From Tubulanus polymorphus (taxonomy: Eukaryota > Nemertea > Palaeonemertea > Tubulaniformes > Tubulanidae), in assembly GCF_964204645.1 (NCBI RefSeq), contig NC_134032.1:11588275-11652274 (forward strand): a stretch of 64,000 nt of DNA. Direction: 5' to 3'. The position numbers and the translations under genes are program-made. Below the pieces are notes generated by a model. It was not told the DNA's origin. It searched no databases and worked only from the letters and a program-made list of their open reading frames with translations. Below, piece after piece: positions 37,809 through 63,680 of this stretch (position 1 is its first letter; each line of letters begins with the position of its first letter).

Positions 37809-38109
37809 TAGATACTCATGAAAAAATTGTGGGGTAGAAATTTGCTTAATCTTGTTAACTGATGAAAAGATACCTTTGAAATAATCAAATGGAGTGAGTA
37901 AAGATTCTTTGAAATGTAACTGCGTACTATAGGGAGTACCATGGGTTAAAAAAAACATGAAACTTGACCCCCTCAAATATATAAGAATTACCTTTAAATA
38001 CCCTCAAATTACCCTCAAATTTTGAGATGACTGACCTGTAGGAATCCCAGTTAAAGTTGAAAATATATTGATAAGTTCCCTTTAGTCATTTTGTTATTTG
38101 TATATGCAG

Positions 38110-38847
38110 GTCAGAGAAGAGAACCTCATATACATTTGATGTCTGAAGATGGAAACACAATGTACAAGGACGCTAATCGACAAAAAAGACATTTTGAAGT
38201 ACAAAGCCAAATGATAACCGTTGATCAGCAAGTTTCTAATGCCGCGAAACGTCACAGAACAGGTGCAGCTGTACCGGGGACGTTACCGCAGCAACGAGTT
38301 CAACAATCACTATCAATGACCGCCAGCAGTAGTAATCTCGATACTCAGTTTCAACAACAGAGGACGCCACTGTTTACTAGACAAACATCAACCGTTGAAC
38401 CAGCTCCATCTGGTGGTGAATCGCTGAGAATATCGTTACCATCAGGAATGGACTTGAAACCATCGGTTACCAACGTCGCATCGCAGCAACATTTGAATGA
38501 TTCGCAGAATGTTGTGTCGTCAATGGCCTCAGCTCCGGTCAGTTGTGTTCCATCGTTCGAACAATTAGAACTGTTTAACAGCGCCACCAGTGGTGCAAAT
38601 ATGGAACTTAGATACAGCGAACAATTAACTGATACAAATACCGCTGATATCAATAGACTTCCAATCCAACAATCTCATCATCACCTGGGTAACGGAGAAA
38701 TCATAGGCGTCAAAGGTGAACCCATAAAAATAGAACCGGTTGAAGTGTTATCAGGAAGCGACGATGATGAAGATTATTCAACTCAGCAGATCATGCAGCA
38801 ACAACATGATCCACAACCGGGAACGAGTGACACTCTTAATCATTCAG
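38110..38847 (+). CDS. Linker exon, gene E, second copy (246 residues)
   Basis: Acceptor TATATGCAG at 38109, donor TCAG|GTAGGTGT at 38847, 738 nt. It differs from 36444 at few positions. It ends VKGEPIKIEPVEVLSGSD, and both VKGE and IKIE fit the sumoylation pattern. It has no N exon of its own, so it must be reached from the N exon at 35839, replacing or following linker copy 1. Confidence 0.85.
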
Positions 38848-39481
38848 GTAGGTGTGGAAAGCAGTTTTTGGTAAAAGTGCACATCCGCAACTCTCGGCGT
38901 AGATGGTTCAATCAATTACATTAAATATCATTGTTTCAGATTCAAAATGTCATCAGCATTTCAGTACATTGCGATTGCTATTGGTTAAGTTTTAAGATAT
39001 CTTCACTAGAAAGATTTTAGCCTGGATTCTGTCATTCAGTAGATTGTGTCAATCACGAGGTGCAGATCTGCACTTTTACTCAATTGTTATCAATCTAATT
39101 ATCAATTTTTTAAAAAGCAAGCATCTTAAATAGCGTACGAGTTTTGCCATATTTATTGAATTCAGAACTTTTGGGGTTTTGGTGTCATGAAAGACTTTGT
39201 GGTAAATTTCCTTTTTGTCGATTTTGAAAGAAAAATATCTGATGATTATTTGACATCAAATGATAATTTTTTACCGATCTGTGGTTTTTGTTGCTCGTCC
39301 AATGCAGTAAACAGCGTCTCAGTCTGATTGGAACACCCCAAAATTGTAGAATGCCCAAACTGAAGCCTTGCCACCGGAGGCAATTTTAGTGTCATGCCCA
39401 AAATATTGTATGACCAGAAATATGTAAAGACTGCCGATGTGCCATAAATTAAAATCTGGATTCTCTCACTACTCTTTGTAG

Positions 39482-39720: not shown

Positions 39721-40026
39721 CATGGAAGATACTCATGAAAAAATTGTGGGGTAGAAATTGGCTTAATCTTGCAGGTTAACTGATGAAAAGATACCTTTGA
39801 AATAATCAAATGGAGTGAGTAAAGATTCTTCGAAATGTAACTGTGTACTATAGGGAGTACCGTGGGTGAAAAAAAAGTGAAACTCGACCCCAATATTTAA
39901 GAATTACCCTTAAATACCCTCAAAATTACCCTCAAATTTTGAGATGACTGACCTGTAGGAACCCCGGTTAAAGTTAAAAATATGTTGATAAGTTTCCTTT
40001 AGCCATTTTGTTATTTGTATATGCAG

Positions 40027-40293
40027 GTCAGAAAAAAGAACCTGCAAATATGGAACTTAAATACAGCGAACAATTAACTGATACAAATACCGCTGATATC
40101 AATAGACTTCCAATCCAACAATCTCATCATCACCTAGGTAACGGAGAAATCATTGGCGTTAAAAGTGAACCCATAAAAATAGAACCGGTTGAAATATTAT
40201 CAGGAATTGACGATGGAAGAGATTATTCAACTCAACAGATTGTACAACAACATGATCCACAACCGGGAACGAGTGACACTGTTAATCATACAG
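40027..40293 (+). CDS. Linker exon, gene E, third copy, internally deleted (89 residues)
   Basis: Acceptor TATATGCAG at 40026, donor ACAG|GTAGGTGT at 40293. A 471-nt deletion (157 codons) joins GQKKEP to ANMELKYSEQL. The frame and both phase-1 ends survive. It keeps VKSEPIKIEPVEILSG but loses part of the acidic run (IDDGRDYSTQQ). It sits directly before the only intact ZF exon of gene E, so it may give a short-linker isoform. Confidence 0.75.
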
Positions 40294-40521
40294 GTAGGTG
40301 TGGAAAGCAATTTTTATCAATCTAATTATCATTTTTCAAAAAGCAAGCAACTTAATAAGCGTTCGAGTTTTGCCATATTAATTGAATTCAGAATTTGTGA
40401 GGTTTTTGTTTTATTGGTTTTTGTGTCATGAAAGATTTTGTGTTAAATTTCCTTTTTGTCGATTTTGAAAGAAAAATTATCTGATGATTATTTGACATCA
40501 AAAGATAATTCTCTACCGATC

Positions 40522-43364: not shown

Positions 43365-43512
43365 ATGTTGCTGTTGGAAGGTGTCGAGGTGCATGTACGC
43401 GAGGATGCATTTAAAAATTGTCTGCGTCGACACATGGATTGGTTAGATGAATTAGTTATTGATGCTGATGATAATACCTGGCTTAGATGGACGTCTCGAC
43501 GACAAACAAAAG
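43365..43512 (+). CDS. N-terminal module exon, gene F
   Basis: Acceptor CTTCAATTTTCAG ends at 43330, ATG at 43365, donor AAAG|GTTCGT. It differs from consensus by Ser to Asn at residue 18, Phe to Leu at residue 40, Met to Thr at residue 43 and three silent changes. A mix of silent and conservative changes suggests a maintained gene. Confidence 0.8.
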
Positions 43513-43889
43513 GTTCGTCCCGAAAGAACTCGCCTTAAATTCATTTTTTCTGGGTTTTGGAGAAATGATAGGGTGGCAGGCTAAATTGGCTAAATCTTAA
43601 AAAGGTCCTTGAAAATATTTTATCTACAAATGGAAGGATTTGAATACTTTGATAATGCACCAGTTGCTTTGATTCATTTGTCGAAATCTTTGAATAATTG
43701 TAGCTGGGTAAAAAATGACTAAATCTTGTTAGTCAACTACCTGGTAATGAAAATATACCTTCTGAAATAATACTGAGTGATTAAGAACAATCAGAAATCA
43801 ATTTACAAAGTGCACATTAAGAAATAAAGGGTTCAAGTTGTGTCTGAATATTGATAAGTTACCGGTAGATGTGATTATTGTTTATGCAG

Positions 43890-45230
43890 ATCAGAGAACA
43901 GAACAAGATATAACAATAGATCAAATGTCTGGAGATGGAAGCGAAACACCCGCTGCAAGTCAACCAAAAACCAGACAAAAAAGACGATTTGAAGTTCAAA
44001 GTCGAACAAAAACTGTTGCTCAGAACGTTTTAAAAACTGTGAGACGTCGTAGAGGAGGTGCAGCTGTACCGGGGGCGTTACCGCAGCAACGAGTCCAATC
44101 ACAAACATTGACGGACAGCAGTGGTAATCTTAATACTCAGTTTCAACAACAGAGGACGCCACTGTGTACTAGACAAACATCACCCACTGAACCAGATCCA
44201 CCTGGTGGTAAATCACCGAGAATATCGTTACAATCAGAAATAAACTTGATACCATCGGTTACCAACGTTGAATCGCAGCAACAATTGAATGAATCAGAAA
44301 ATGTTGTCTCGTCGACAGAGACACCTGCGGAACAATTAGATTTGACCGGTCCAGAAATCTTGTCAAGCGCCGAAATTGAATCTACTTTAGACAGTATTAA
44401 CAACGCACAGGTAGAATCTGACAATCCTACGATTCCCAACAATTCAATTGACTACGGTCAACACCAGACGACATCGCCACGTATTAAACAAAAATCACCC
44501 GTAAAACTGGCTCCACCTGTTGCTGAGTTGCCAAAGATATTGTTACGATCTGGAATCAACTTGAAACCGTCGAGTACGTACATCGTATCGCAGAAACAAT
44601 TGAATAAATCGGAAAGTGTGTCGTCGCCGGCAACAGCTCCGGTCAGCTCAGCATCGGCGGAATCTCTCGATTTCTCAGGTTTTGGTTTGACTGTTTGTGA
44701 AATTTTATCGTGCACCGAAATTGAATCAACTTTAAAAAGTATCGAAAATGCTGCGAAGGAATCAGACATTTCTACAGTCCCAAACGATGCAAACGTTGAT
44801 GCAGCATCGACGAATAAAAATCAGACTAACGTTGAACAGCCCAGTGAAAGTGGATTATCGACACCACCGCCCCCGGCGGTCTCCAGCTGCGATAATACGT
44901 TAGAACAATTAGAATCGGTCGTAAATTCCGCTCCGTCGTTCGAACAATTAGAAATGTCTAGCAGCGCCACCGGTGGCGAAAACATCGAACCAAAATATAG
45001 CGAACAATTAAATGATACGAATACCGCTGATATCAATACGCTTCCGGTCCAACAATCACGTCATCACCAAGGTCACGGAGAAGTCGGCGACGTTAAAAAT
45101 GAACCGATGAAAATTGACCCAGTTGAAATATCCTCAGGAAGCGACGATGATGAAGATTATTCAACTCAACAGATCGTACAACAACAACATGATCCACAAC
45201 CGGGAACAAGTGGCAGTTTTAATCATTCAG
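43890..45230 (+). CDS. Linker exon, gene F (447 residues, internal duplication)
   Basis: Acceptor TTTATGCAG at 43889, donor TCAG|GTAGGTGT at 45230, 1341 nt, phase 1-1. The longest linker. The middle module occurs twice: INLIPSVTNVESQQQLNES with AEIESTLDSINNAQ, then INLKPSSTYIVSQKQLNKS with TEIESTLKSIENAAKES. Ends VKNEPMKIDPVEISSGSD, acids, DYSTQQIVQ, HDPQPGTSG. Basic KRRFEVQSRTKT and KTVRRRRGG at the start. The exon next downstream in compatible phase is 45953. Confidence 0.85.
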
Positions 45231-45952
45231 GTAGGTGTTCACTGCAATTTTATCCATGAAATATCTCTAAACCAGTAAATTGTTGCTCATTTGGGGATTT
45301 TGCATTCGCTCTTCATCAGTTCGTCTGTCCGTGGACAGAAAGCAGTTATTATGGAAAGTTTTGAAGTCGCTTCAAATAGGTTGTCTTATATCATATAATT
45401 GATGCTGATATTTATCTTAATGATATTTGGTTTTGACCAGAAAAACCAAAAACTCGAAAAACTGATTGATCGAGGCTAATAGGATTGATGCGAGATTAAG
45501 TGATATTACAGCGACAATACATGTATCTTTGATAACAGAATATGAATATGAATTTATTTTCACTACAAATAACAATTATATACAATACAAAGATTACGTT
45601 AGATCACATTTACATACACTGTACATTGAATGTGAAGGACACACCAAGAGCCGTAAGGCTGTTTAATATCGTGGATTAGATTTATCCAGTCGCAGCGTGT
45701 GTGTCTTAGTCCGTGTCAACGTGTGTGTCTTTTAGTGTGTCCAGTATTAAGTGTGGGTATCTATAGGGCCTACAAAAGGAATTCCATTAGCTATACTAGG
45801 TTGTATCTTGAGTGGTGATATTGAAAGGGTTAATGAATTAGTTTTCTAGGTTAAGAATATGTTGGCTAGTGTTCGTATTATACGGCAACAAGATTTCATT
45901 TAGTCGATCATCGAAATCTTAAATCGTCGTGTCTCCTGGTTTGTATTTAAAG
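45231..45952 (+). other. Intron after gene F linker
   Basis: No finger exon. 45306-45400 is a fragment of the GTCCGTCTGTCCG/AAGTTTTGAAG repeat of 11395. An AT-rich stretch at 45535-45665 (TATACAATACAAAG, GAGCCGTAAGGCTGTTT) looks like a retroelement tail, with a 66-codon open frame I do not trust. Confidence 0.4.
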
Positions 45953-46210
45953 ATTCTAATCGAAAAGAAGATGACGTCGGTGACGCGGTTGAGGATGAAA
46001 GTGAGGATGATTACGTTCCCGATGAAGTTAGTGCCAGCGATCGTGAAAACGACACCGACGCCAAAAGCGAAGCGATCCCTGTCGTCAGGAGCCGAGTCAA
46101 TCGTCGGAATAATAATCGGCGGAATAACACGAATCATAATACAGCGAATATGGAAAATGATGAACAGATGAAGGCCTTTAAGTTGAGACTTAAATTGCAG
46201 ACACGTAACG
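45953..46210 (+). CDS. Acidic exon, first part of a non-canonical zinc protein module (gene F)
   Basis: Acceptor TTTGTATTTAAAG ends at 45952, and AT completes a codon with a preceding G, phase 1, exactly what the gene F linker donor supplies. 258 nt open: DSNRKEDDVGDAV, EDESEDDYVPDEVSAS, then basic Asn/Arg-rich RRNNNRRNNTNHN and NDEQMKAFKLRLKLQ. The donor AACG|GTGAGT is excellent. The acidic YVPDEVS-type start is typical of the uncharacterised family encoded by the next exons. It could instead be an internal exon of a separate gene with an unseen start. Confidence 0.65.
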
Positions 46211-46403
46211 GTGAGTTTAGCTTCTTTGTGGCCAACATTTATGTGGCCAATAATTATTGCCCTTCTTGTCGGGTGCTACCCCTCAATATAAGCTCTGGAT
46301 CCGCCTCTGAACAAACTATGATGTTGCATGCGTAATCTCCATAGAATGAACATGTATTTGTGTTAACATGATTCTATTTCTCTGTTTTCTCTCCTTACTA
46401 TAG

Positions 46404-46630
46404 TCACCATACCATTATACCCTCAGTTGGACAACGGCGCCAGGTGTTATAGCAAGTTGGATTACTGCCTTTTCTGTGGCTGGTCGTTCACATCGAAAAT
46501 ATCTGCTCATCTTAGAAATATGCATTTCGATGAGCCACAAGTGCAAAAGGCACTATCGCTTCCTTTCAAAGAGAGGAACCTCGCGTTTCTTAAAATGCAA
46601 AATGAGGGAAATTTCATGCACAACGTTAAG
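46404..46630 (+). CDS. YCxFC zinc-finger exon of an uncharacterised metazoan family
   Basis: Acceptor CTTACTATAG ends at 46403 and the donor is TTAAG|GTAAAT, phase 1 in and phase 0 out. It codes VTIPLYPQLDNGAR, then YCLFCGWSFTSKISAHL (C-x2-C-x10-H-x4-H), then EPQVQKALSLPFKERN and LKMQNEGNFMHNVKV. This finger followed by an LxNxGNxxHN motif recurs in long uncharacterised proteins of fish, echinoderms, cnidarians and molluscs, as I recall. Their role is unknown to me. Confidence 0.75.
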
Positions 46631-46900
46631 GTAAATAAAAACAGTTGAAAAGTAGTCTTGTAGTTCATGGCATATTCTATGTTTGTGGTTATAACTTATA
46701 AGGTCATTTGTTTTTGTGAAGAGGTATTGTAAAGTGTAGTTGTCTCTCTTCCTGAACGCTTATGGCAAATATTGGCGTCTCATGTTGGTGCTGAAATGCA
46801 TGTAGAATTGAAACTAACGCCACAAGACTTGAAAAGTTGTAATAATCATTTTTTGAAAAAAAATAGAATCTCTTGCAAACATTTTTGTTGCTGATTTTAG

Positions 46901-47168
46901 GTTATCGAAGCCGGAGAAGGGGAACTGGTGATTGCCAGGCGCCCGACCCACGATGAACGCACAGCTGCCGATTATCTCCCGTGTAAATTCTGTATGGCGT
47001 TCTACGTAAGAGCCGCCTTGTGCATACACGTGCCGAGGTGTGCCATGAAACCGTCCAACGCCGAATGTTCGAATTATTTGCGTAATGGAATGCGCATGTT
47101 GATGCCATATCTAAAAGTCAGTGAAAAGATGCAACGTCAGGACATAGTAGTTTACAGCCGGGAAAAAG
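46901..47168 (+). CDS. Second zinc-knuckle exon of the same module (gene F)
   Basis: Acceptor GCTGATTTTAG ends at 46900, phase 0. Codes VIEAGEGELVIARRPT then LPCKFCMAFYVRAALCIHVPRC... in order (C-x2-C-x11-H-x3-C, a C2HC-type knuckle) and RNGMRMLMPYLKVSEKMQ. A donor GAAAAAG|GTACAC at 47169 gives phase 1, matching the exon at 47789. Without that splice the frame stops at 47222-47224. The long middle part normal for the family is absent, so the protein is short. Confidence 0.7.
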
Positions 47169-47480
47169 GTACACTATCAGTCAAGGAATTGAATACATAT
47201 AGTATTACTGCAGGGGCGATATAGGAAAATCGAAAGGCCGGATTCCAGAAGATAAGAAAAGGCACATCTCAGATAAAACAGCCATTAATGAGATCACTCC
47301 CTCGGTATTAGATATTTCTCGAAAGATATACCCAAAAATATACCCATTTATGGAAGAAACAAGTGCAAAATTTAGAGGTTTTCATGACCTTCGTTGTAAC
47401 AAAAAGGGCAATTTCTATCGAAAGGCAGGTATCGCGACCCTATGACCTATCCCTTAGTGACCAACCCGAGAGTGACATTT

Positions 47481-47638
47481 TACCCTCTTCAGGCATAGCG
47501 CAAGTGATTAAATTTTCATATCATACTGGTATTTATATAAAATAAGACAAAGCTAATTGCAAACATATATATTTCATTTTATATAAATACCAGTATGATA
47601 TGAAAATTTAATTACTTGCGCTATGCCTGAAGAGGGGA
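47481..47638. mobile_element. Inverted-repeat MITE, ~60-bp arms, in a gene F intron
   Basis: TACCCTCTTCAGGCATAGCG starts a ~60-nt arm matched, inverted, by the arm ending at 47638 (CGCTATGCCTGAAGAGGGG), with a ~30-nt loop. Few mismatches, so a young hairpin. Confidence 0.85.
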
Positions 47639-47788
47639 TAATGTAGCTCCTGAAAACGTTTGCTAGAATAAATTGATATACTCATTAGAAAATGAGATTT
47701 GTACTGTTTTTGCTTCTATGGATTTTCAACTATTTGAACTCTCTACCAAAGATTTATTCGATATCAATCTCGTGTTTTATCTTTTCAG

Positions 47789-48030
47789 TAAAATGTGTCC
47801 ATCGAAAAAAGGTCCGTCACGCGATGTTGAGAAGAAAAATCCTGCGACGAAGATGGACGCAAATGGAAAACGACGCGTTCTGTCGAATTCTCAAAGATAA
47901 AATTCAAAATCAAACGATGCCCTCATTCGAAACGTTGAATAGCGTCGCCAAGGCGATCGGTGGTTCTAGGACTATAGCGCAAATTCGAACGAAACTGCAC
48001 AATGTTATATCCGGGAAGTTAAAACTGTAG
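47789..48030 (+). CDS. Myb/SANT-like C-terminal exon (gene F)
   Basis: Acceptor TTATCTTTTCAG ends at 47788, and TA completes a codon after a phase-1 donor (GTA, Val). About 79 residues: KCVHRKKVRHAMLRRK, then RRRWTQMENDAFCRILKD, an amphipathic segment, AKAIGGSRTIAQIRTKLHN and VISGKLKL before TAG. The WT..E...F start and the later R-T-x-Q-I-R-x-K-x-H motif resemble the C-terminal Myb-like part of the same family. An overlapping frame from 47673 ends early and is not used. Confidence 0.7.
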
Positions 48031-50340: not shown

Positions 50341-50488
50341 ATGTTGCTGTTGGAAGGTGTCGAGGTGCACGTACGCGAGGATGCATTTAAAAGTTGTCTG
50401 CGTCGACACATGGATTGGTTAGATGAATTAGTTATTGATGCTGATGATAATACCTGGTTTAGATGGATGTCTCGACGTCAAACTAAAG
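50341..50488 (+). CDS. N-terminal module exon, gene G
   Basis: Acceptor TTTTTCAG ends at 50314, ATG at 50341, donor AAAG|GTTCGT. Identical to the gene D copy as read by eye. The next intron is only 95 nt, against 290-725 nt in the other genes, so a compact constant N-plus-linker unit precedes the large ZF array. Confidence 0.85.
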
Positions 50489-50583
50489 GTTCGTCCTTAA
50501 AAAATCCTTCCTCAAGTTCATATCAATTTCAGGTGCTCTAATGTTGAAAAGTTCTCGGTTACTAAATCATTGTCTTAATGCAG

Positions 50584-51771
50584 GTCAGAGAAGAGGACAA
50601 ATACATCAAATGTCAGGAGATGGAAACGCAATGTACATCGGCACAAATCAATCAAAAACCGGACAAAAAAGACGATTTGAAGTTCAAAGCAGAACAAAAA
50701 CCGTCGCTCAGAATGTATTAAAAGCTGTGAAACGTCGGAGAGGAGGTGCAGCTGTACAGGGGGCGCTACCGCAGCAACGAGTTCAATCACAAACAATGAC
50801 GGCTGTCGGGCAGCAACCGATCGGTCTGTTACCAGCTCAACAGAGAATGACGCCCAATCGAGGAGGTCGCGGAAGAGGAAGAGGACGAGGTTTACCTCCT
50901 CGTCACGTTTCACCGGCTATGAACATTCCTCCTATGAATATGGGAAACCAACCCGGAGTCCATCAAATATCACCGGCTAATAGTGTTCGCAATCTTAATA
51001 CGCAATTTCACCAACAACAACAGAGGACGCCACCTCGTCTTATTACACAGACAACACCCATTAAACCAGCTCCACCTGGTGGTGAATCGCCGAGAACACC
51101 GTTACAGTCGGGAATGGACTTGAAACCATCGGTTACCGACATCGTATCGCAGCAACAGTTAAATGTTGTGTCGTCGACGGCAACAGCTCCGGTCAGCTCG
51201 GCGTCAGCGGAAGCCGTCAATTTCTCCATTTTAGATTCGACCGGATGTGAAATTTTATCGAGTGCCGAAATCGAATCAACTTTAGAAAGTATTAAAAACG
51301 CCGAAGAGGAATCAGATGATTCTACGATTCCCGATGATTCAAATGTCGATGCAGTATCGACGAATAAAAACGAAACTAACGTTGAACAGCCGAGTGAAAG
51401 TGGATTATCGACACCCCCGCCCCCGGCTGTCTCCAGCTGCGATAACACGTTAGAACAATTAGAATCGATTGTAAATTCCGCTCCGTCATTCGAACAATTA
51501 GAAATGTCTAGCGGCGCCACCGGTGGCGAAAATATGGAGATTAAATACAATGAACAATTAACTGATTCTGCTGCCGATATCAACATGCTTCCATTACAAC
51601 TACAACCGTCGCATCACCAAGGTTACGGCAGCGTTAAGAATGAACCGATGAAAATAGAACCGGTTGAAATATCGTCAGGAAGCGACGATGATGAAGATTA
51701 TTCAACTCAACAAATCATGCAGCAACAACATGATCCACAACCGGGAACGAGTGGCGGCTTTAATCATTCAG
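50584..51771 (+). CDS. Linker exon, gene G (396 residues, RG-rich insert)
   Basis: Acceptor TTAATGCAG at 50583, donor TCAG|GTAGGTGT at 51771, 1188 nt, phase 1-1. Starts GQRRGQIHQMSGDGN. Basic KRRFEVQSRTKT and KAVKRRRGG. A ~60-residue segment found only here follows: LLPAQQRMTPNRGGRGRGRG, LPPRHVSPAMNIPPMN and VHQISPANS. The RG run resembles RNA-binding or arginine-methylation regions. Then the common Ser/Thr/Pro-rich part with AEIESTLESIKNAEEES and the end VKNEPMKIEPVEISSGSD, acids, DYSTQQIMQ, HDPQPGTSG. This is the only linker in phase upstream of all ZF exons from 53267 on. Confidence 0.9.
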
Positions 51772-53266
51772 GTAGGTGTTAACTGCCATATTATCTTCAA
51801 TTATGCATTCATCTAGGGTCGATTTTTTTCAAAAACCACTCAGCTCTTTCAAATAAATAGCGCCTTCAATTCTTTAAGCCCTGCCTCCGAGTCTCCAGTT
51901 TATTTCGAATTTTGATTTAATGAGGTGTGGGAGCTAATCATATCTACTGACTCAAGTTGCGCTGATGCATTCAGTCTAAGTATGGACTTAGTGGGTTTAG
52001 ACCAGACTTAAGTAGGCGCTAAGAAAAATTTGGCGCAGTTTTTATAGCCCTCTCAATAATTTCGTTTAAGTTGGTGGGCTGCCCTGTGTAATGATGTGGT
52101 TCTTGAAATTTTGACCCCGCGTAGAATCAAGGTCCCGCAAACAACGAAGAAAAATTTTGGAATCATGTAAAAAAGTAATCTTTGCAATTATTGTTCTTTT
52201 TCAAAGTTCAACGGTACCTTGATTTTGCGTTGCGTAGTACGATAGATAATCTTGAAAATGTTGAAATTTTCCATGACCGAATGAAAAATTAATTACTTTT
52301 GAATGATTGATCGGTATTTCAAGGCCGAATCCAAATAACCAGTTGAAATAAAAAATCCCTGAAAATGTTCCGCTTCATGAAGATTTCAACGTTATTTTTT
52401 GAATTCAAGTTTGCTTAAATGTTGACAGTAAGTAGCCTTAGGTAAATATTCATAGGATTGAAAAATACGGCTTTTGATGAAATACGTAATCAGTTCGTGT
52501 CCTGAAAGTTCATTGGTCGCTTAGAATAGTTCGAATGTGAGCCAATCAGTACGCGGTTTACGGACGAAAACCGTGTCCGATGGTTACCTAGATTATGGCG
52601 TATTATACGGACCAATCAGAGAGCGTTAAACGGAATATTTCGGTTGTTAGTGAAGTCTGATTTTATTGACATGTTGGTTAGACTAGATGCACCGATCACT
52701 AGTCAGGTTTTTACGGTAAATGTGTAGAGGCGCGTTGCGGATGAACCAGTCGAGCGTAACATTTAAAGCATTGATCAATGGAGGGAACCAAGATGAACCA
52801 ATGGTGAACCAATGGCTTATACCGGCGTAGAGAACCTTGAAAAAATCTAATGTAACGGCGAGGACTGCTTTCTAATACTGGATAACTGAACATTGTCAAC
52901 AATGCGACCTGTTATCTCGCTTGATACCGGATGCGCCGGGTTTATTCTATTCATCGTCAAATTTCAGCTATTTGTCAACGATTTCTCAGTGACTCGCGGT
53001 CGATCAACCATTAAACACTGCCTACCCTTCTTTCGAGTTTATCTTAGTTTCGTATCTTACTTTCCCTGTCAACAGCTGCGGGAGGAACGCGCGAAAAGCG
53101 TTTTGAATAGGCGTCCTCTCCTCGATCGATGAGCTTCTAGTCATTTTGAAGTAATTTAACTTAAGTCAGGAAGAACTGTAGGAATATTTCTGTGGCCAAT
53201 ATTGTCCCTGACGCGACGAAATTCCTCTTCGAGATTCTTAAATTTAGTTCTCATCGCTTTTTGCAG
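51772..53266 (+). other. Intron between gene G linker and its first zinc-finger exon
   Basis: No exon recognised. It carries CCAAT boxes (CCAATCAG at 52542 and 52612, ACCAATGG at 52797 and 52809), which could mark an internal promoter or be chance. Confidence 0.35.
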
Positions 53267-53586
53267 GTTTGTTTCTCGCGACCGCGTTGTTCAATCCTCC
53301 GTCAGCCGAACTCGCGCCCGTCGGACAACATTCTCACAACGTCGATGGCGCCACTGCGTCGTCCCCTACGAGTCGAGGCGGCGTTACGAAATGGAAGCAT
53401 AAATGTCGTTTTTGCGATCGCGTTTGCGGCAGTAAATCGGATATCGCTCGACACGAGCGTATTCACACCGGCGAGCGACCGTTTCCGTGTCCGATGTGTA
53501 GCATGAGTTTTACTCTGAAAGGAAATCGTCGTCAGCACATGGAACGTATTCATAACTATAACAAAGCGTTCTTCAATGATATTTAA
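53267..53586 (+). CDS. Gene G zinc-finger exon 1 (two fingers)
   Basis: Acceptor TTCTCATCGCTTTTTGCAG ends at 53266, phase 1. Lead LFLATALFNPPSAELAPVG..., TKWKHK, then CRFC H-x3-H, TGERPF, CPMC H-x4-H, and the tail NYNKAFFNDI. Closely paired with 54340. Lead and fingers resemble the exons at 39 and 18287, so this is probably the ancestral type. Confidence 0.85.
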
Positions 53587-53614
53587 TGATGTTCCGACGA
53601 TCCTACCGGTGTCA

Positions 53615-53915
53615 AAAGCGAGGATCCACCAGGTGTCGTTATATTGTGCTGCATTCGTAGATTACTGCGGTATTTGACGATTCCACTTGTGGCAAGTGAT
53701 GATCCACCAGGTGTCGCTAGTGTGCAGTAGTCATAGATAACTGCAGCGTTCGGGAATTCCATTTGGGGCAAGTTAACATCCACCAGCAGGTGTGCTAGTG
53801 TGCGGTAGGACAATTCAATTACTATGGCAAGTGAACATCCACCAGGTGTTCTATTGTGATATAGGATTACGCAAATGCTGTGGCAAGTGAGGATCCACCA
53901 GGTGTCGCTCTGTTG
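53615..53915. repeat. Five copies of ATCCACCAGGTGTCG in a 54-80 bp array
   Basis: Cores near 53623, 53702, 53778, 53837 and 53893 with flanking GGCAAGTGA and ATTGTG words. In the 3' UTR of exon 53267. Each contains CACCAGGTG, an E-box-like palindrome of the Snail/ZEB type. Confidence 0.75.
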
Positions 53916-54196
53916 TGCAGGAGTTTATATTTAGCTTGAGGATTAAAGTATGATTAGATGTCACCTCGCTCCCAAACTAGATGTTTTCATTTCGTGTTGG
54001 AAAGACTTAAGATTGTTTCTATGTTCAATACGCTATACATTTAGGGGCAGACCTTCTTAAATCGTCGACATCAAACTTTTCTACTTCTAAATGTTGGAAT
54101 CACTGATCGACATCAGTTAAAAGCAGTTTTTTACCAACTTGACAGTTATTATCGGTTGTGTTTATAGCTTCAAAATTTTAAATACATCGCTTTTTT

Positions 54197-54202
54197 AATA
54201 AA
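54197..54202 (+). terminator. Poly(A) signal AATAAA
   Basis: Between exons 53267 and 54340, so the first exon appears to be an alternative 3' end with its own signal. Confidence 0.5.
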
Positions 54203-54339
54203 CAGTGGTTTTGACATAGAAAACTTACTTTCGTTTATATTTCTGTTTCGACATCAGAATCTCGAGGGTTTGAATTGGGCGCGGAACCCCGTCCGATATC
54301 CGACCTATTCTTAAATTCAGTTCTCATCGCTTTTTGCAG

Positions 54340-54656
54340 GTTTGTTTTACGCCACTGCGTCGTTCGATTATGGCGCGTCTGCCGAACTCGCGACGGGCAG
54401 ACGACGTTCTCGCGTAAGTGGTGGCGCCGCTGTTGACGACGACACAAGCGAACCGACGAAATGGAAGCATAAATGTCGTTTTTGCGATAAACTCTGCAGC
54501 AGTAACGCGGATGTCGTTCGACACGAGCGTATTCACACCGGCGAACGACCGTTTCCCTGTCCGATGTGTAGCATGAGTTTTAATTTGAAAGGAAATCGTC
54601 GTCAGCACATGCAACGAATGCATAACTATAACAAAGCTTTATTCAGTGATATTTAA
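54340..54656 (+). CDS. Gene G zinc-finger exon 2 (two fingers)
   Basis: Acceptor TTCTCATCGCTTTTTGCAG ends at 54339, phase 1. Lead LFYATASFDYGASAEL..., TKWKHK; CRFC H-x3-H, TGERPF, CPMC H-x4-H; tail NYNKALFSDI. Tandem duplicate of 53267. The fingers differ mainly in finger 1 helix residues (SSNADVVRH against GSKSDIARH). Confidence 0.85.
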
Positions 54657-54922
54657 CACAGTTCTGAATCGCACGGCGGTGTTCAGCGGTGGTGTGGCGC
54701 GGAGGCATCGAAACAGAGGTTTTTTCGTTTTGATTCGTAAATCGGCGCCCAGTTTTCTAAATCAATTATATCATTGGAAATGATCTTATTTCAACCCGGA
54801 ATTAGATCGTACTGGACTCGGTTTAAAAAAAAAATTTCCAACGGTTGAATGAAAATTTGTCGGTGGTGGTTGAAAAACTGAAATCATTTCTAATCCTCGG
54901 TTCTCATGGCTCTTCGTTGTAG

Positions 54923-55275
54923 GTGGCCTGGATTTCGGACATTGCGGTGATGCGTTGCCATGGGAACGCAGGATTACCGAACACGACGGAGCCGGGATGT
55001 TTATATCGCCCGACGACGAAATCCGACCGACGCTGCCGACGAGAACGAGCGCCTGGGCGTCGCGCGCGCGCGATAAGAAGTGTCGATTTTGCGACAAGTG
55101 TTTCCCGTCGCCGACGGAGACGCGGCGTCACGAGCGCGTGCACACCGGCGAACGTCCGTTTCGATGCCCGATGTGCGAGAAGTGTTTCAAACATAAGTAC
55201 GATCGCAAGAAACATCTTCGCGCCCTTCACAACTTCGATGAAAACGCGTGGGACAAAAGCTTAACTCTGATATAG
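54923..55275 (+). CDS. Gene G zinc-finger exon 3 (two fingers)
   Basis: Acceptor TCTTCGTTGTAG ends at 54922, phase 1. A lead of ~50 residues (LDFGHCGDALPWERRITEHD, SPDDEIRPTLP, then an Ala/Arg stretch), CRFC H-x3-H, TGERPF, CPMC H-x4-H, tail NFDENAWDKSLTLI. High GC. The decayed counterpart in gene C is 15167. ATTAAA at 55513 may end it. Confidence 0.85.
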
Positions 55276-55779
55276 TCTCAGGCAGGGGGCGTGTACGTCG
55301 TTCGGAACTGTGTTCGAAAAGTCCGAGATACATTTGAAATATTTCACGGTGGTTAAACATATCAGTTATCGGTTGCAGAATGGATAGTTTATAGAATAGA
55401 GGTTTCCGGGTCCTGATTTGACTATGTAGTGCCTTCTTCTGGCTGAATTTTGCAAAAATATGTCGCATTTCTATCTAAACTTTTTGTTTAGTGGTTATTT
55501 TCTTATTTTTTTATTAAAGAAAGACTCTCTAAAGAGCATTAATTAATTAATTTAAGGCAGTAATGATTGTTTTTTTGTTTTAGCTGCCTGTTTATGTAAA
55601 TCAAGGGCAACTTCTGAAAATTCGGGTTTCGTAATGCATTCGCTGCGAAAATCGAGATATCTCGAGTTTCACGGTTCAACCCCTGACAACCCTGCCTCCC
55701 TACCTCCACCCCCTACCCCATGTTTACTACTTACAATATTTAACTCTTACTGATATAAGTTTCCCTTGGCATTTTGCAG

Positions 55780-56120
55780 GTGAACTGAACCTAATGCCGA
55801 GGGAAATCTTCCAATACGACCTAAACTACCGACATTTGTTATACTCGGTCAACGCGAGCCTACCGTCGCCACCTGGCGGTAGTTATCATCATCACCATCA
55901 TCATCACCAGAAAGCGATGACTAGATGGCGCTCTTTGCCGTTGAAATACGACTGTCAGATATGTTTGAAAAAGTTTCGAACGCCGACGTTGTTGAAACGG
56001 CACATTCGCGTGCACACGGGCGAAAAGCCTCACCGATGTCAGGTGTGCGGGGAGGGCTTCGCCGAGCCGGCTAATTACAATCGGCACGTACGTAGAAAAC
56101 ATCCGCCATGGGGCAGTTAA
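55780..56120 (+). CDS. Gene G zinc-finger exon 4 (two fingers, His run)
   Basis: Acceptor TTGGCATTTTGCAG ends at 55779, phase 1. Lead ELNLMPREIFQYDLNYR..., LPSPPGGSY followed by seven His in a row, then CQIC H-x3-H, TGEKPH, CQVC H-x4-H, short tail PPWGS. Only copy of this type in the window. Poly(A) signal AATAAA at 56910. Confidence 0.85.
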
Positions 56121-56649
56121 AATATCGGTGAGGAGGGATGCACAGTACTGTTCTCCATACGCTGTCTGCAGTTTTTTAAGAAATCTTAATTCAATTCTTA
56201 TGTTTATGATATGTCGTGGCTGCTGAAGTAGCGAGGCTTTCGATCCCTCGGAAAAAATACTGAAACTTAAGCTTAATTTAAGTGTCATTTTGCACATTAG
56301 CTCAATATATTTCAAAGCATTATCAGCATTGATAGAATATTGACATCCACGCCGGACGGGGCAGCAGATATTTCATAAGGGGTGGCTGTGAAAATGAAAG
56401 GGCTGGCCGACCTTCTAAAACCTGGAAAACATAGGAAAGGTTTGTGGAATTGTCAGGGGCAGTTGAAAACGTCAATGAATGCAGATTCCATCAGGGTATA
56501 TGGGAACAGGATATGAAAGGGTTAAAATTCAATAAGCATGCTATTTGAGACACAATCTGTAAATGGTCTATTATATTAATGCAGAATTTAAGAACACTCT
56601 TGATATTTTGTCAACTGTCAGTTATTTGTTGTTCGAGGCTGAAAAATGT

Positions 56650-56841
56650 GATACCTTGTTTCTCCTAATCGGCTGGGCCACTTTTCCATAGTGCAATAAA
56701 ATTTGTTATCAGTTCATTTCAATAGCTGCCAGGTGTTATGGTTAGATTGGTCATGATTCTTAAAAAGTTATGTACAGGATATATATGCAGCCAGCCGGGT
56801 CAACTTTTAAGCTCGGCAGAAATCATGAGAAACAAGGTATC
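56650..56841. mobile_element. GATACC MITE, best-preserved copy
   Basis: GATACCTTGTTTCTC at the left and GAGAAACAAGGTATC at the right are perfect inverted ends, 192 bp, no coding capacity. Other copies are at 398, 31785 and 59670. Confidence 0.85.
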
Positions 56842-56909
56842 AATTTTGTTATCCTTATATACGTATTATGAATACGTTTATGTTTATCTTAAAGAACAAA
56901 GTATAAATG

Positions 56910-56915
56910 AATAAA
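56910..56915 (+). terminator. Poly(A) signal AATAAA
   Basis: 790 nt after exon 55780, before exon 57230. Confidence 0.4.
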
Positions 56916-57229
56916 GTTATATTTAATAATCATAGAAATTATCGTTGTTGATTATTATTCTTTTTAATGCTCCGTAGACGGATTTAACGACGCAAAATGT
57001 TGTTTTTCATCGTAAATTCATGAATTTCAAGAGAACCACGGGATTGTGTGCGGGACTGGCCTGACCGGTGAGAACCATCAAGGGACTGACTGTATGACTA
57101 ATGCCTCGTAAACCAATTGAACACTGAAATATTTGCCTCAATTCTTGTTGCAACAATATTATCCCAGTTACCATGACTACACATGTAATGGACGAATTGT
57201 AATTGAGTTTTCCCATTACAATTTTGTAG

Positions 57230-57579
57230 GTGAAATCAAGTCCGGTGGCTCCACCTATTGGTCATCGTCTACATACGCGAATCGAGGAGGCTTTCGGTCG
57301 CCGCGTCAGAGTAACAGGGAATATCGCCCCGGCCAGGGGGGTGGTGGCGCTAGCGCAGCCGGAGCGGACGATCTGAGACGACATCAGTGCGAAATTTGCG
57401 ATAAACGATTCGCGTCGGCTTCGTTGTTGAAGATTCATCATCGCGTTCACACCGGCGAAAAACCGTACGTCTGCGCCGTCTGCCAGAAACGATTCACTCA
57501 AATCGGCAGCTTAAACGTTCACTTGAGAAAAGTGCACAACATACTGTACTGCGTGTCTGCGGACGGAGCTCGGAAATAG
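57230..57579 (+). CDS. Gene G zinc-finger exon 5 (two fingers)
   Basis: Acceptor TACAATTTTGTAG ends at 57229, phase 1. The lead is Ser/Tyr/Arg/Gly-rich ([27 protein letters not shown]), then CEIC H-x3-H, TGEKPY, CAVC H-x4-H with [11 protein letters not shown] and tail [13 protein letters not shown]. Finger 2 and the NIL tail resemble the four-finger exons at 2047 and 20507, which look like expansions of this finger. Confidence 0.85.
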
Positions 57580-58037
57580 GAACTTAACATCTCAATCAGA
57601 CGGATCCCAGAAATAGGAACTTAATGTCTCAATCAGACAGAATCTGGAAGTATGAACTTTCCATCTCTATCAGACAGAAACCTGTGATAGGAGGTCGCTG
57701 CCCGACTAGCAGCTATCTCCCCATCTAGTCAACAAACCCTTTCAGAAATGATACTCTCTACAGGTCATCGGACATGAGACCCCCTACCAGTATTAATGCG
57801 CCCCAACTGGTCGGATGAACGTAGTGCACGTGATAGGAATAATATTCGAAGTGGAGTCGAAGCGCTGTTTCCAATCTGATGAGAATTTAAAAATTGACAT
57901 GACCATATGTTAGAAAATATCTGAATGAAATGGACTCATGATTTAGGAGATCGCATGACTTCAAATTGATATTCAAATTTATCAAATATTTGAAATAATT
58001 TCGAAATGTTATCCCAGTTTCCCATTGCATTTTGCAG
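57580..58037 (+). other. Intron or 3' region between exons 5 and 6 of gene G
   Basis: Begins with three short repeats of GGAACTTAAYRTCTCAATCAGA-like sequence (57578-57670). No gene seen. Confidence 0.4.
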
Positions 58038-58402
58038 GTGCGTCGTGGGAAACTGGAGGTTACCGGAGAATGCCGCCGCGGAATCCGTTGTCTGCCGCGA
58101 GGAACGTGCAACAACGACGACCGCCGTACGTCGTCGCCGTCACTAGGCAACCGCAGCCGTTGGCGACGGTGAAAAGCGACGTACCGCGGCCGCATCAGTG
58201 CGACGCGTGCTACAAGGCGTTCACGTCGCGAACGAATCTGGAAATACACAAACGCGTTCACACGGGCGTTCGTCCGCACGTCTGCCCGGTGTGCAAGAAA
58301 CGATTCACGCAGAAAGGAAATTTGAAAACGCATTTGCGCACGGTGCACAACATACTGAACTGTGTAGCCGCGGACGGCTCCGATAATGCGAACGTTCCCT
58401 GA
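58038..58402 (+). CDS. Gene G zinc-finger exon 6 (two fingers)
   Basis: Acceptor GCATTTTGCAG ends at 58037, phase 1. Arg/Pro-rich lead ([20 protein letters not shown]), CDAC H-x3-H, TGVRPH, CPVC H-x4-H with [11 protein letters not shown], tail [17 protein letters not shown]. Duplicate of 57230. Confidence 0.85.
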
Positions 58403-58482
58403 AAATCATTTAAAAAAAAAATGGGCAACAGAGAAAACACTTCGATCGATAAACTGAGTGAACAAATCAGAAATTGTTTAAC

Positions 58483-58772
58483 CCTTTCAGTGCGTCTACA
58501 CCGCAGTGCGGTGTATGAATCGGTGATGTATTTTGCTAGTACACCGCACTGTGGTGTATTGATGTAATTAGTAATTAGTTTATATATCTATTGAAAGATG
58601 GCAGTACCTGTCAAACATAGTTAAATACTAGTAACTAATGATACACCGCGCCGCGGTGTAGATGCACTATAGTGGTATTCCCGTTATTCAGCACACTAGG
58701 GTGGAATTTTTTTTAATTTTCAAATTATCTCCAGCACTATAGGGTATTGATTAGTCAGCACTGAAGGGGTTA
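58483..58772. mobile_element. ACACCGC hairpin element, reverse copy
   Basis: Reverse complement of 23040-23297. Begins CCCTTTCAGTGCGTCTACAC and ends AGTCAGCACTGAAGGGG. The ends CCCYTTCAGTGC are inverted, so this is likely a full MITE of ~290 bp. The rest up to 59670 shows nothing recognisable. Confidence 0.65.
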
Positions 58773-59669
58773 AAAATGTTTTGGATTGTCAAAATTGTAC
58801 TGAACCAGAAAATGGTTTTTACGAAACTTTTAGTTGAAAAATATTGACCTTTAAGTTATCAGTGTAGCGAATCAGAAAGATTGGTTTCGAAGAGAAATGA
58901 TCTCATTATTATTATTATCAAAAACATTGATCAAAGATTTTTTTAACTTTTGTTGAAATGTTTTGTCAGAATCAGAAAATGGTTGCAAGAAAACATTTTG
59001 TTGAAAGTTCTCTTCTTATTTACCTTTAATGAACAGCCCCAAGGTTTGGAATCGTCAATTAATTTCATCGTTCGAACGCCCTGGTTTCTTGTGCGTTTAA
59101 TATTAATATCTCTTAATATAATATTAACATAAATATCATTATTTACTTCAAAATTACGAGTCATTTCGGGTACCAGTTAGTTAGGGTACCAGAAGGTGTA
59201 TGTTTGCATTTATAGCTTTATTTTTACTCAATTGACTAGATACAGAAATTGCATATATGTACTTAATGTTTTGACGCATGCATTAGAGTATACTTGTATA
59301 TGGTAGTTCTATTAGAATGAAATATATCAACTGTATGTTAAAAACAGAATTAGTTGAAATTTTTGAACGACGCATTATCAGAGCTGCCAACTGTTACTGA
59401 TTTCAGTTATTTTTTACTATTTTCATCTAGAAACACTGATTTGTTTGTTTGATATCTACAGAAATGTGACAGATGCTGCTACACAGGAGCGTCCTGCCGT
59501 CGATTACCGATAAATTTGAACTTTTTTTTCGTATTTCGATGAAATGTTCCTGAAAAGAAAATCAATACATTGTTGAATGCACGTTACTGAGGTTGGCAGC
59601 CCTGAATTCTATGAAATTCGATTTGATCGTATCGAATTTATGTGCGGTGGCTATTAGCTAAAGAAAAAT

Positions 59670-59858
59670 GATACCTTATTGCTCCTAATCGGTTGGGTCA
59701 GTTTTGTAGACCGCAATAAAATTTGTAATCAGTTCATTTCCTTAGCTGTCAGGTCTGTTATGGTTAGCCGGATTTCTAAAATAAAAAGTAATGTTCGGGG
59801 TAGATAGGCTGCCGGCCAGGTCAACTTAAAGGCAAGCAGATGGAGAAACAAGGGACCT
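59670..59858. mobile_element. GATACC MITE copy
   Basis: GATACCTTATTGCTCCTAATC ... GGAGAAACAAGGGACC. Shares its interior with 56650. Confidence 0.7.
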
Positions 59859-60084
59859 ATTTTTCTAGCCTTAACACATTCGCCGCTTGCTTGACAATAC
59901 AGTGGCGCCCCCAAGTGCTGCATGAATTCGCTGTTAGATAGGCTCAAACAGCCATTTTGGCAGCTACAACTTTTAACACGATGACATCTATCAGGACTTA
60001 AGATATTTTTCAACAAAATCGGTGATGATTTATACCAAAAATATGCCAACAAATCATTTATTTTGAATCGTCATTATCTTCCAG

Positions 60085-60485
60085 GTGGCATTTTCAACAA
60101 TGATGACCTGCCATTAGGCATCAAAGATTTTCCGGGACAGTTCGGTGGAACGTTTCCTTCGACTATGACGTCCGTCGCTAGCGCAAGCGGCCATCAACGA
60201 CGGAGGAAATCGTCGTATCCGGGAATGGGCAGAAATCGTTCGGCTGGATTCGCTGCGAGTCGTTCCTCTGACGCCGGTGCCGCGGCCGGCGGCAGTTCGA
60301 TCGAATTGATGGTGAAAGGAATTTGTCCGATTTGTAAGAAAGATTTTCGCTGTCGCTCAGCGCTGGAGAAACATATGCGCGTTCATACCGGCGACAACCC
60401 GTTCGCTTGCGACGTTTGCGGCCGCACGTTCAATCAGAAAGGATCGTTGAACAGGCATCGGAAATTCGTTCATCAACTGATCTAG
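60085..60485 (+). CDS. Gene G zinc-finger exon 7 (two fingers)
   Basis: Acceptor TATCTTCCAG ends at 60084, phase 1. Lead GGIFNNDDLPLGIKDFPGQF, Ser/Ala/Gly-rich part, IELMVKGI then CPIC H-x3-H, TGDNPF, CDVC H-x4-H with FNQKGSLNRH, tail QLI. First of a group of three (also 60810 and 62547). Confidence 0.85.
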
Positions 60486-60809
60486 TCACTTCGCAGCCCT
60501 AAATGATGTAGTGACTTATCTTAAAACTCTTACTATACAGGACAATTGAACATGACTTTCGATCGATAAGGATAGACTTATACCAAGAATGAGATAGTGA
60601 CAGCATGCGTTTTTTCGGTGTTTGGTGTGGTGGAAGTTTCATTTATTAACTATTTTATGTCTACGTTGAAAACTGTATGATTTATACCGGTTGTTAGATA
60701 ATCAATCTGCTGATGGTCGTCACATGTACGCTGATTAGAAATCCGTCTGCTCACGTCGCGATTCTAAACAATTATCAACCAGTTATTTTCAATCGTCGTT
60801 ATTTTCCAG

Positions 60810-61207
60810 GTGGCGCACTCGGCAATGTCGACATGGTATTTGGCGCGATGGATCTCCCTGGACAGTTCGGAATGTACACGAATCCAAATCTGGAAATTAC
60901 CCGTAGCGGTCGTGGTGGTCACCAACGAAGGCAGTCGTCAATGTTGCCGGGGACTGGCAGACGTCGCCAGGCGGTTGTCACGGGAAACAGTCCGCTCGCC
61001 GCAGCTGGTGCCAGTTCGATCGATTTGATGGTGAAAGGAATTTGCCCGATCTGTAAAAAAGATTTCGGTTTTCGCTCGGCTCTGGAGAAGCACATGCGGG
61101 TCCACACCGGCGACAACCCGTTCGCTTGCGAAGTTTGCGGCCGCACGTTCAATCAGAAGGGGTCGTTGAGACGGCATGAAAAAAATGTCCATCGTATTGT
61201 GAATTAG
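60810..61207 (+). CDS. Gene G zinc-finger exon 8 (two fingers)
   Basis: Acceptor TTATTTTCCAG ends at 60809, phase 1. Lead GALGNVDMVFGAMDLPGQF, IDLMVKGI, CPIC H-x3-H with FGFRSALEKH, TGDNPF, CEVC H-x4-H, tail RIVN. With exon 61609 it forms a pair duplicated as 62547 plus 63256. Confidence 0.85.
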
Positions 61208-61608
61208 CCTCTAGGTGGCACTACAGCAGTCTGAATACCAGACTATGTACGGATAGATACTAGACTAGCACTGCGGAGATCTACATAGCCACTAGATCGC
61301 GATGTGGTTGGCTATTGAGCATTCCATAGGGGCTGGCATGATCCATTTGTTGATCAGTTTTTTATGTGGGCTCTTAACTGAAAAATGAAATTTATGTTGA
61401 CTTCTCTTTCAATGCCCCAAAGGGTTTCATTGTAAATATTTTAGTGACAATTTATTTGGTGCCATTTTGACTTTTGAACAATAATGCTTGATAGCGATGA
61501 AGTTTTAGAGTTTACCCATGTGTATAATGTCTGTCAGTGGTGTAGTAGACTTTATTGCTTGAATTATTTCAAATGAAATAAACCAATTTATGTGTCGAAT
61601 TATTGCAG

Positions 61609-62030
61609 GTGTTGATGATGAAAACTTTGTATTGTCTCCAACGACAACACCGGCAATGGCAGACGGACATATGATACCAAACCTGTCCCAAATCGTCGTT
61701 AACCGGTCCAATTACAACCCGGCAGTTTGGATGAAGGATTATTCCGTTCCGAAGCGGTCATTTACATCAGCGCTGCAAGTACGACCTCCATGTGGCAGTA
61801 TAAGAACGGAAGAACCCATTGCGACTGCATCTACACCTCATTCGAAGGTCGTTACATTGCATAAATGTCTCGTTTGCGCGAAGTGTTTCCAGACAAAATC
61901 TAAGTATAAACGTCACTCCATGATACACACCGGCGAACAACCGTTTCAATGTCAGTTCTGCCAACGATTGTTCAATCAGAGATCATCGCTCATGCGTCAC
62001 ATGACCAGTATCCACGGTTGTGTGGAATAG
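61609..62030 (+). CDS. Gene G zinc-finger exon 9 (two fingers)
   Basis: Acceptor GAATTATTGCAG ends at 61608, phase 1. Lead VDDENFVLSPTTTPAMADGH..., WMKDYSVPKRS, VVTLHK then CLVC H-x3-H, TGEQPF, CQFC H-x4-H with FNQRSSLMRH, tail GCVE. Intron end TGTGTCGAATTATTGCAG is shared with 63256. Confidence 0.85.
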
Positions 62031-62546
62031 AGAGATTTGTCTGCTAGCTGAGCGTGGCTGGATATACAAACGGCATATACAGCATGAAAATCCGTTTTCA
62101 CATTTATTAGATCATTGGTGGCGTGGAATGAAAGTCCGTCTGCTCATGTTGCATTGTCTGCTCGTGTTTTGAAATATGCGTCGTAGCTCGGAATACGAAG
62201 TTGTGGTTTAAAACCACATTCAGTGACAGTTTACGTTTATTTCAGTCTATAGAACCGGGTCCAAATATTTAGGATTATCCCATTGTTACAGCGTCTAAAA
62301 AATCCCGACTGTGGTTTGGTTCGCGCTCTCATTATTGGTTTTTCTTTTGAACTTCGCGGGTTTATTGGAATATTCTAATATCGACTATTCTATACCTATT
62401 CATTGAAAACTGTCTACGCTGGTGTTAGTCCGTCTGCTGATAATCATCACACATACGTGTACACATGATGAAAATCCGTCAGCACACGTCGACATTTCGT
62501 ATTAACATATTTCACTAAGTTATTTTAAACCGTAATTATTTTCCAG

Positions 62547-62938
62547 GTGGCGTCCCCGACAATGATGACCTGGTATTTAACGCAATGGATATCCAAGGAC
62601 AGTTCGTAATGTACGCTGACCCGAATCTGGAAATATCTGCGAGCGGCCGTGGTGGTCACCAACGAAGGAAATCCTCGTTGCCGGGTGCTGGAAAACGTCG
62701 TCGTGCGGGAGTCACGGGAAACAGTCCGCTCGCCGCAGCTGGTGCCAGTTCGATCGATATGATGGTGAAAGGAATTTGCCCGATTTGTAAAAAAGATTTC
62801 GGTTTTCGCTCGGCTCTGGAGGTACACATGCGGGTTCACACCGGCGACAACCCGTTCTCCTGTGAAGTGTGCGGTCGCTCGTTCAATCAGAAGAGTTCGT
62901 TGAAACGACATAAAAGGAACATCCATCATATGAATTAG
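62547..62938 (+). CDS. Gene G zinc-finger exon 10 (two fingers)
   Basis: Acceptor TTATTTTCCAG ends at 62546, phase 1. Lead GVPDNDDLVFNAMDIQGQF, IDMMVKGI, CPIC H-x3-H with FGFRSALEVH, TGDNPF, CEVC H-x4-H with FNQKSSLKRH, tail HMN. Duplicate of 60810. Finger 2 contact positions differ slightly (QKSSLKRH against QKGSLRRH). Confidence 0.85.
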
Positions 62939-63255
62939 AAGCAGGCGCCAATCTGTATTTATAATGAAGCCACTAGATGGCGACGTGGTGGTCTACAGAA
63001 CCCTGAACCCTGTGGCAAAGCATTTTCATCCGGTTCAGTTGATCTGCGTACTGTGGATTTTTTTACAGAAAGCAGAAATTCATGTCAACTCAACTGAATA
63101 TGTTTAGAAGATTCTGTTATAACGATGATACCTGATAGCGAAAATGTTTTAGAGTTAGCAAAGTTGTTTTGGGTCGGCGGTGTTGAAGAGTTTCTAGCTG
63201 AAATCTCAATTTCCTGAAAATATAATAAACTGTTTTATGTGTCGAATTATTGCAG

Positions 63256-63680
63256 GTGTTGATGTTGATGAAAACGTTGTATTGTTTCCGACGACAACAT
63301 CGGCAGTGGCAGACGGACAGATGATACCGAACCAGTCTGAAATCTCCGTTAACCAGTTCGCTTACAACCCTGCCTTTTGGCTGAAGGATTATTCCGTTCC
63401 GAAACGGTCATCCACATTGTTGCAACAAGAACGACCTCCGGGTGGCGGCGTTAGAACAGAAGAACGCATTGCAGCACCATCTAAACCTCGGTCGAAGGTT
63501 GTTACGTTGCATAAGTGTCTCGTTTGCGCGAAGTGTTTTCAGACGAAATCTTCGTATAAACGTCACTCAATGATACACACAGGCGAACAACCGTTTCAAT
63601 GTCAATTCTGCCAACGATTATTCAACCAGAGATCGTCGCTCATGCGTCACATGACCAGTATCCACGGTTGCGTGGAATAG
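63256..63680 (+). CDS. Gene G zinc-finger exon 11 (two fingers)
   Basis: Acceptor GAATTATTGCAG ends at 63255, phase 1. Lead VDVDENVVLFPTTTSAVADG..., WLKDYSVPKRS, VVTLHK, CLVC H-x3-H with FQTKSSYKRH, TGEQPF, CQFC H-x4-H, tail GCVE. Finger 2 is the same as in 61609, so DNA specificity probably differs little. The array may continue past the window: 63681-64000 shows no further exon. Confidence 0.85.

Follow-up and report, generated by a model that had tools for sequence, protein, structure and literature searches.

In the vertebrate clustered protocadherins, tandem variable exons share constant exons; the variable exons lie 5' and have their own promoters, and the constant exons lie 3'. In Dscam1, one of many exons is also chosen from a tandem array, and the choices are internal. 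Among loci that produce numerous transcription factors by combining one head with many zinc-finger ends, the insect BTB genes are the best known; one is lola, whose constant 5' exons are followed by many alternative zinc-finger ends. The mod(mdg4) locus combines a BTB head with FLYWCH ends and has 31-41 alternative 3' ends in most species compared; its variable regions are independent primary transcripts, sometimes from the opposite strand, and are joined by trans-splicing (PMC4667647). The subject of the present analysis is gene G, located towards the end of a 64,000-nucleotide (nt) window (C8:11588275-11652274; positions without a C8 prefix are counted within this window unless they are genomic positions in Mb) of a 268-Mb animal genome. 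Gene G is probably one transcription unit, in which an N exon and a linker exon are followed by a series of no fewer than twelve alternative 3' terminal exons; the single linker donor at 51772 would be spliced in cis to the acceptor of one of them.

Gene G resembles lola in that constant 5' exons precede many alternative zinc-finger ends. As in the lola/mod(mdg4) type, and as known here from anatomy, one constant 5' part is accompanied by many 3' ends of the same phase, and each gene G end contains two C2H2 fingers. The comparison with lola and mod(mdg4) made in a preliminary description of this DNA therefore holds for the anatomy, but not for membership, since the N domain is not a BTB. The constant part of lola is a TTK-type BTB, whereas that of gene G is a 49-amino-acid (aa) domain for which neither Pfam nor PDB offers a match; in addition, about 15 units are clustered here, unlike in lola. 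The TTK-type BTB is arthropod-specific (PMC11426971). In the present genome, the cuticle domain PF00379, which is numerous in arthropods, has no match, with 58 matches for the nuclear-receptor positive control PF00105, which points away from an arthropod. Mitochondrial COX1 and GH6 likewise yielded no match.

Unlike those of mod(mdg4), the gene G ends are of the C2H2 type and all share the strand of their N exon; in number, the mod(mdg4) ends are comparable to those of the unit at C8:11496543, which has approximately 35. Compared with the protocadherins, the order is reversed, with the N exon and linker of gene G lying 5' of the variable exons. Compared with Dscam1, each gene G end possesses its own stop codon and ends the protein. 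The ZAD, KRAB, and SCAN clusters are not matched either, because the N domain has no Pfam match and 15 N exons accompany about 92 intact zinc-finger exons, rather than one N per array. A search of the literature, with subscription papers lying outside the coverage, brought up no account of a comparable locus whose head is other than a BTB domain. If transcripts confirm the model, this plan would have arisen more than once, here with an unrelated head, fifteen units, and up to about 35 ends per unit, in a genome without arthropod-like features. Furthermore, the choice among many 3' terminal exons could then be studied in a setting where N domain, donor, branch point, and acceptor hardly vary.

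Organization of gene G

The constant part and the twelve ends of gene G are as follows (a slash within a motif marks the splice junction).

50341..50488, + strand: N exon, ATG and 49-aa N domain (MLLLEGVEV...RRQTK), phase-1 donor AAAG/GTTCGT
50489..50583, + strand: short intron, N to linker
50584..51771, + strand: linker exon, 1188 nt, phase 1 at both ends
51772..51781, + strand: linker donor GTAGGTGTTA, GTAGGT at 51772
53267..53586, + strand: zinc-finger end 1, two C2H2 fingers
54340..54656, + strand: zinc-finger end 2, two C2H2 fingers, duplicate of end 1
54923..55275, + strand: zinc-finger end 3, two C2H2 fingers
55780..56120, + strand: zinc-finger end 4, two C2H2 fingers
57230..57579, + strand: zinc-finger end 5, two C2H2 fingers, reciprocal best match in the unit at 11496543
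58038..58402, + strand: zinc-finger end 6, two C2H2 fingers
60085..60485, + strand: zinc-finger end 7, two C2H2 fingers
60810..61207, + strand: zinc-finger end 8, two C2H2 fingers
61609..62030, + strand: zinc-finger end 9, two C2H2 fingers
62547..62938, + strand: zinc-finger end 10, two C2H2 fingers, duplicate of end 8
63256..63680, + strand: zinc-finger end 11, two C2H2 fingers, duplicate of end 9
64256-64503 (C8:11652530-11652777), + strand: zinc-finger end 12, two C2H2 fingers, beyond the window end

The preliminary description had assigned to gene G a single constant N exon and linker followed by at least eleven alternative ends, with no other N exon or linker among them, and these assignments are borne out. 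The ATG at 50341 has an in-frame TAG 15 bases 5' of it. The linker carries the AQNVLKAVKRRR basic motif and SUMO-like KxE motifs, and its C-terminal end is PGTSGGFNHS/G. Its phase-1 G/GTAGG donor is common to all 17 linker ends in the cluster to which gene G belongs. Because the linker exon is phase-symmetric, the N exon could also join a zinc-finger exon directly, with the frame kept if the linker is skipped. Among the zinc-finger exons, a --max profile search on both strands reveals no second N exon or linker, the best other match having an E-value over 1.

All eleven two-finger exons within the window are intact, each with a phase-1 acceptor and its own stop, and the sequence past 64000, where more ends were to be looked for, contains the twelfth. 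The fusions of N domain, linker, and zinc-finger end are open in 12/12 cases, giving proteins of 527-586 aa. The twelve ends display twelve different recognition-helix pairs (positions -1, 2, 3, and 6); with such distinct helices, the predicted isoforms should differ in DNA preference.

Splice phase and acceptors

A generic metazoan matrix served to score acceptors in the part of the open frame that precedes the first finger. The cluster contains 116 zinc-finger open reading frames, including 92 exons with a positive-scoring phase-1 acceptor and 24 frames without one. Phase 1 is the phase of the top-scoring acceptor in 11/11 exons of the window and, cluster-wide, in 96 of 112 zinc-finger frames, where one-third is expected. 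The chance of eleven phase-1 sites in eleven exons, (1/3)^11 or about 6e-6, is only nominal, because duplicated exons are not independent. The phase-1 rule is also kept by exons of quite dissimilar sequence and by the exons of a diverged paralogue. Furthermore, homology blocks across the cluster end at the linker donor and begin at the zinc-finger acceptor (query residues 53-54), and the protein similarity begins at the acceptor itself, an example being GVGYDVPRELLPSVELSRLP, which recurs in numerous exons from several units.

A branch-point-like yTnAy motif is present within 24 nt of the acceptor in 64 of the 92 exons, compared with 35% of random YAG sites, and its A is situated exactly at -14 in 43/92. 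The 'n' position (-15) is free (0.05 bits), with its neighbours constrained. Between the linker intron and the 120 nt before each acceptor, no docking-type pairing of the Dscam kind beyond that of shuffled sequences was detected (z -2.1 to 0.8).

Selection on the ends

Across the duplicate pairs of gene G, the ratio of nonsynonymous to synonymous divergence (dN/dS) of the fingers is 0.04-0.47, indicating purifying selection, with values of 0.04 for the pair 61609/63256 and 0.08 for 60085/60810. In the pair 53267/54340, which has the least conserved flanks, identity is 96% over the last 25 intronic nt and 82-95% in the finger-coding bins, whereas farther upstream and past the stop it is about 30-50%, near background. 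The pairs 60810/62547 and 61609/63256 retain some similarity farther upstream too. Conservation of the acceptor and exon, but not of the surroundings, is expected of an exon that needs splicing to an upstream partner.

Diversifying selection specific to the DNA contacts was considered and rejected: contact positions differ at 34% and the rest of the finger at 22% (p 0.007), but other exposed helix positions reach 31%. Elsewhere in the cluster, C8:11577196-11577684 and C8:11579865-11580353 are recent duplicate zinc-finger exons, 93% identical with a synonymous divergence (dS) of 0.11, and 8 of their approximately 11 aa changes fall at finger DNA-contact positions. In this pair, the DNA specificity looks to have diversified.

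Strand order and diverged paralogues

In the cluster (C8:11.40-11.65 Mb), 116/116 zinc-finger frames are located downstream of an N exon and linker on the same strand, and both strands are used, all units being minus below 11.492 Mb and plus above 11.496 Mb. Outside the cluster, 18 diverged copies of the N domain exist. In the case of the paralogue at C8:10.797 Mb (C8:10781501-10797500, minus strand), 0.8 Mb from the cluster and with an N identity of 72%, one N exon and one linker with a G/GTAAGT donor are accompanied by at least five phase-1 zinc-finger exons within 16 kb, and no other N exon was found among these. Its linker contains the AQNVLRAVKRRR motif of gene G and KxEP motifs, and several of its zinc-finger ends have a common C-terminus of their own, GFELPxGY. 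This paralogue is evidently an independent expansion of the same plan. At C8:15.968 Mb, an N exon and linker are followed by two zinc-finger exons, the second with a phase-1 site but a stronger phase-0 one. Because the plan is repeated in paralogues, it belongs to the family and not to this array alone.

Proposed splicing and rival explanations

In the favoured reading, the pre-mRNA would run through the whole zinc-finger array, and the phase-1 donor at 51772 would be joined in cis to one of the twelve phase-1 acceptors. One end would be used per transcript, and the chosen exon would provide both the pair of C2H2 fingers and the stop codon. The products would be nuclear DNA-binding proteins, presumably transcription factors, sharing the N domain, which probably serves protein-protein contact, and the SUMO-like linker, and differing in their fingers. 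The exon anatomy, phase, open fusion frames, selection, and absence of other N exons are read from the sequence. Taken with the strand order and the paralogue plan, the phases, the 12/12 open fusions, the selection from the acceptor on, and the lack of another N exon or linker make the alternative 3' terminal exons suggested earlier well supported.

Several points weigh against this reading. The gene G model is known here from genomic sequence alone, the phase shared by array duplicates is partly inherited, and the phase-1 acceptor of end 12 is the weaker one, at 0.2 bits versus 2.9 for a phase-0 site. A spliced retrocopy demonstrating the linker-zinc-finger junction was sought and none was found. 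In-frame ATGs between the acceptor and the first finger occur in 8 of the 11 window ends, being absent only from 53267, 54340, and 57230, and some stand in good context, such as GTCGACATGG in the end at 60810; the earlier description thus went too far in denying every end a plausible start. Poly(A) hexamers after the ends show no enrichment over upstream, antisense, or random sequence. AATAAA or ATTAAA is present within 400 nt downstream of 37/92 exons, upstream of 37/92, and in 45% of random windows, and within 150 nt downstream it follows 0/12 gene G exons. With these signals at background, termination after each end is putative, and the earlier remark that some exons have their own AATAAA, although true, reflects chance frequency only and carries no weight.

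Joining after transcription of an N-linker transcript to separately promoted zinc-finger transcripts is an unlikely alternative origin of the same proteins. Trans-splicing is reported in the closest functional analogues, mod(mdg4) and lola (PMC4667647, PMC11426971); the unit at 43365-45259 has an N exon and linker without a zinc-finger exon before the next N, and N exons and linkers are near-interchangeable from unit to unit. However, trans-splicing does not require the order seen in 116/116 frames, each behind a same-strand N exon and linker despite the two-strand cluster, and no promoter-like conserved block is situated upstream of the duplicate ends 53267/54340. Cis splicing thus appears likelier than trans. 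Since the mod(mdg4) variable regions derive from independent transcripts, promoters within the array would favour trans-splicing and would not refute a shared N exon with alternative ends. A related and rather improbable extension treats the whole 250-kb cluster as one super-locus, in which 15 heads, their N domain homogenised, and some 90 intact ends could be joined across units by cis read-through or in trans; if true, it would be a protocadherin-like transcription-factor repertoire in a non-arthropod animal.

The in-frame ATGs in 8/11 ends, some in good context, would also suit zinc-finger exons that are, singly or in small groups, independent genes with an unseen first exon or an internal ATG. 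That is highly improbable, as conservation begins at the acceptor, upstream of the ATGs, and both acceptor and phase are conserved, which a self-standing gene does not need; moreover, in 35 of the 92 cluster exons the fingers are not preceded by any in-frame ATG, and translation starting at an ATG 5' of the acceptor could read into only 10/92. Hardly credible is the idea that one or two ends are in use and the remainder are left over from units whose N exon has disappeared. Broken zinc-finger fragments do occur in other units, and 24/116 frames have no positive-scoring phase-1 acceptor, but all twelve gene G ends are open, their duplicates show the low finger dN/dS given above, and the --max profile search detects no N remnant. 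Alternative cis splicing to the twelve ends of gene G is accordingly preferred here.

N domain

The family consensus of the N domain is ExxLKxCLxxHLDxLDEIVxxADExTWxRWxxxR, with two invariant tryptophans. In a Pfam scan, the N domain and the linker match no family, and a PDB profile search and Foldseek yield no significant match for the N domain. An AlphaFold2 (AF2) model, made without the paralogue N sequences, suggests a beta-hairpin plus two helices, the confidence being modest (predicted local distance difference test, pLDDT, 73).

Between units, the N exon is nearly frozen (50341-50488 and 14 others, C8:11413659-11638761; dS 0.00-0.07), with a linker dS of 0.24-0.45 and 55-69% identity in the introns flanking the N exon. 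Exon-limited gene conversion or a constraint on silent sites would explain the silent-site identity; in either case, all cluster proteins retain the same N domain. By analogy with the BTB, the N domain may act as a shared contact or dimerisation surface.

Cluster of fifteen units

Profile and protein searches identify 15 N exons and 17 linker ends from 11.41 to 11.64 Mb, with gene G as the last unit. The number of zinc-finger frames per unit ranges from 0 (unit 43365-45259) to about 35 (the unit with its N exon at 11496543). Two head-to-head units on opposite strands, C8:11490618-11498155, have collinear zinc-finger arrays (rho 0.82, p 0.001); on this evidence the arrangement at 11.49 Mb is an inverted duplication. 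The collinearity of the gene G array with other arrays is mixed, being 0.65 (p 0.0002) in one direction and 0.12 (not significant) in the other.

Several units depart from the common organization. The linker of unit 43365-45259, which has no end of its own, is intact with its donor, and the unit may be an orphan or a user of the gene G ends. Three linker copies (36395-37213, 38061-38924, and 39978-40325), each with a phase-1 donor, are preceded by a single N exon (35839) and followed by one zinc-finger exon. On the minus strand, C8:11452477-11455056 is a single zinc-finger exon with about 27 fingers (859 aa), and the linker of its unit, C8:11460037-11461674, contains several internal repeat copies. 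Meanwhile, unrelated open frames (DYLPCKFCMAFY... and RRWTQMENDAFCRIL...) are situated between two units at 45904-48030 and are perhaps another gene or the remains of a mobile element. Past gene G, two tandem poly(A)-binding-protein-like genes adjoin the cluster at C8:11654810-11667026.

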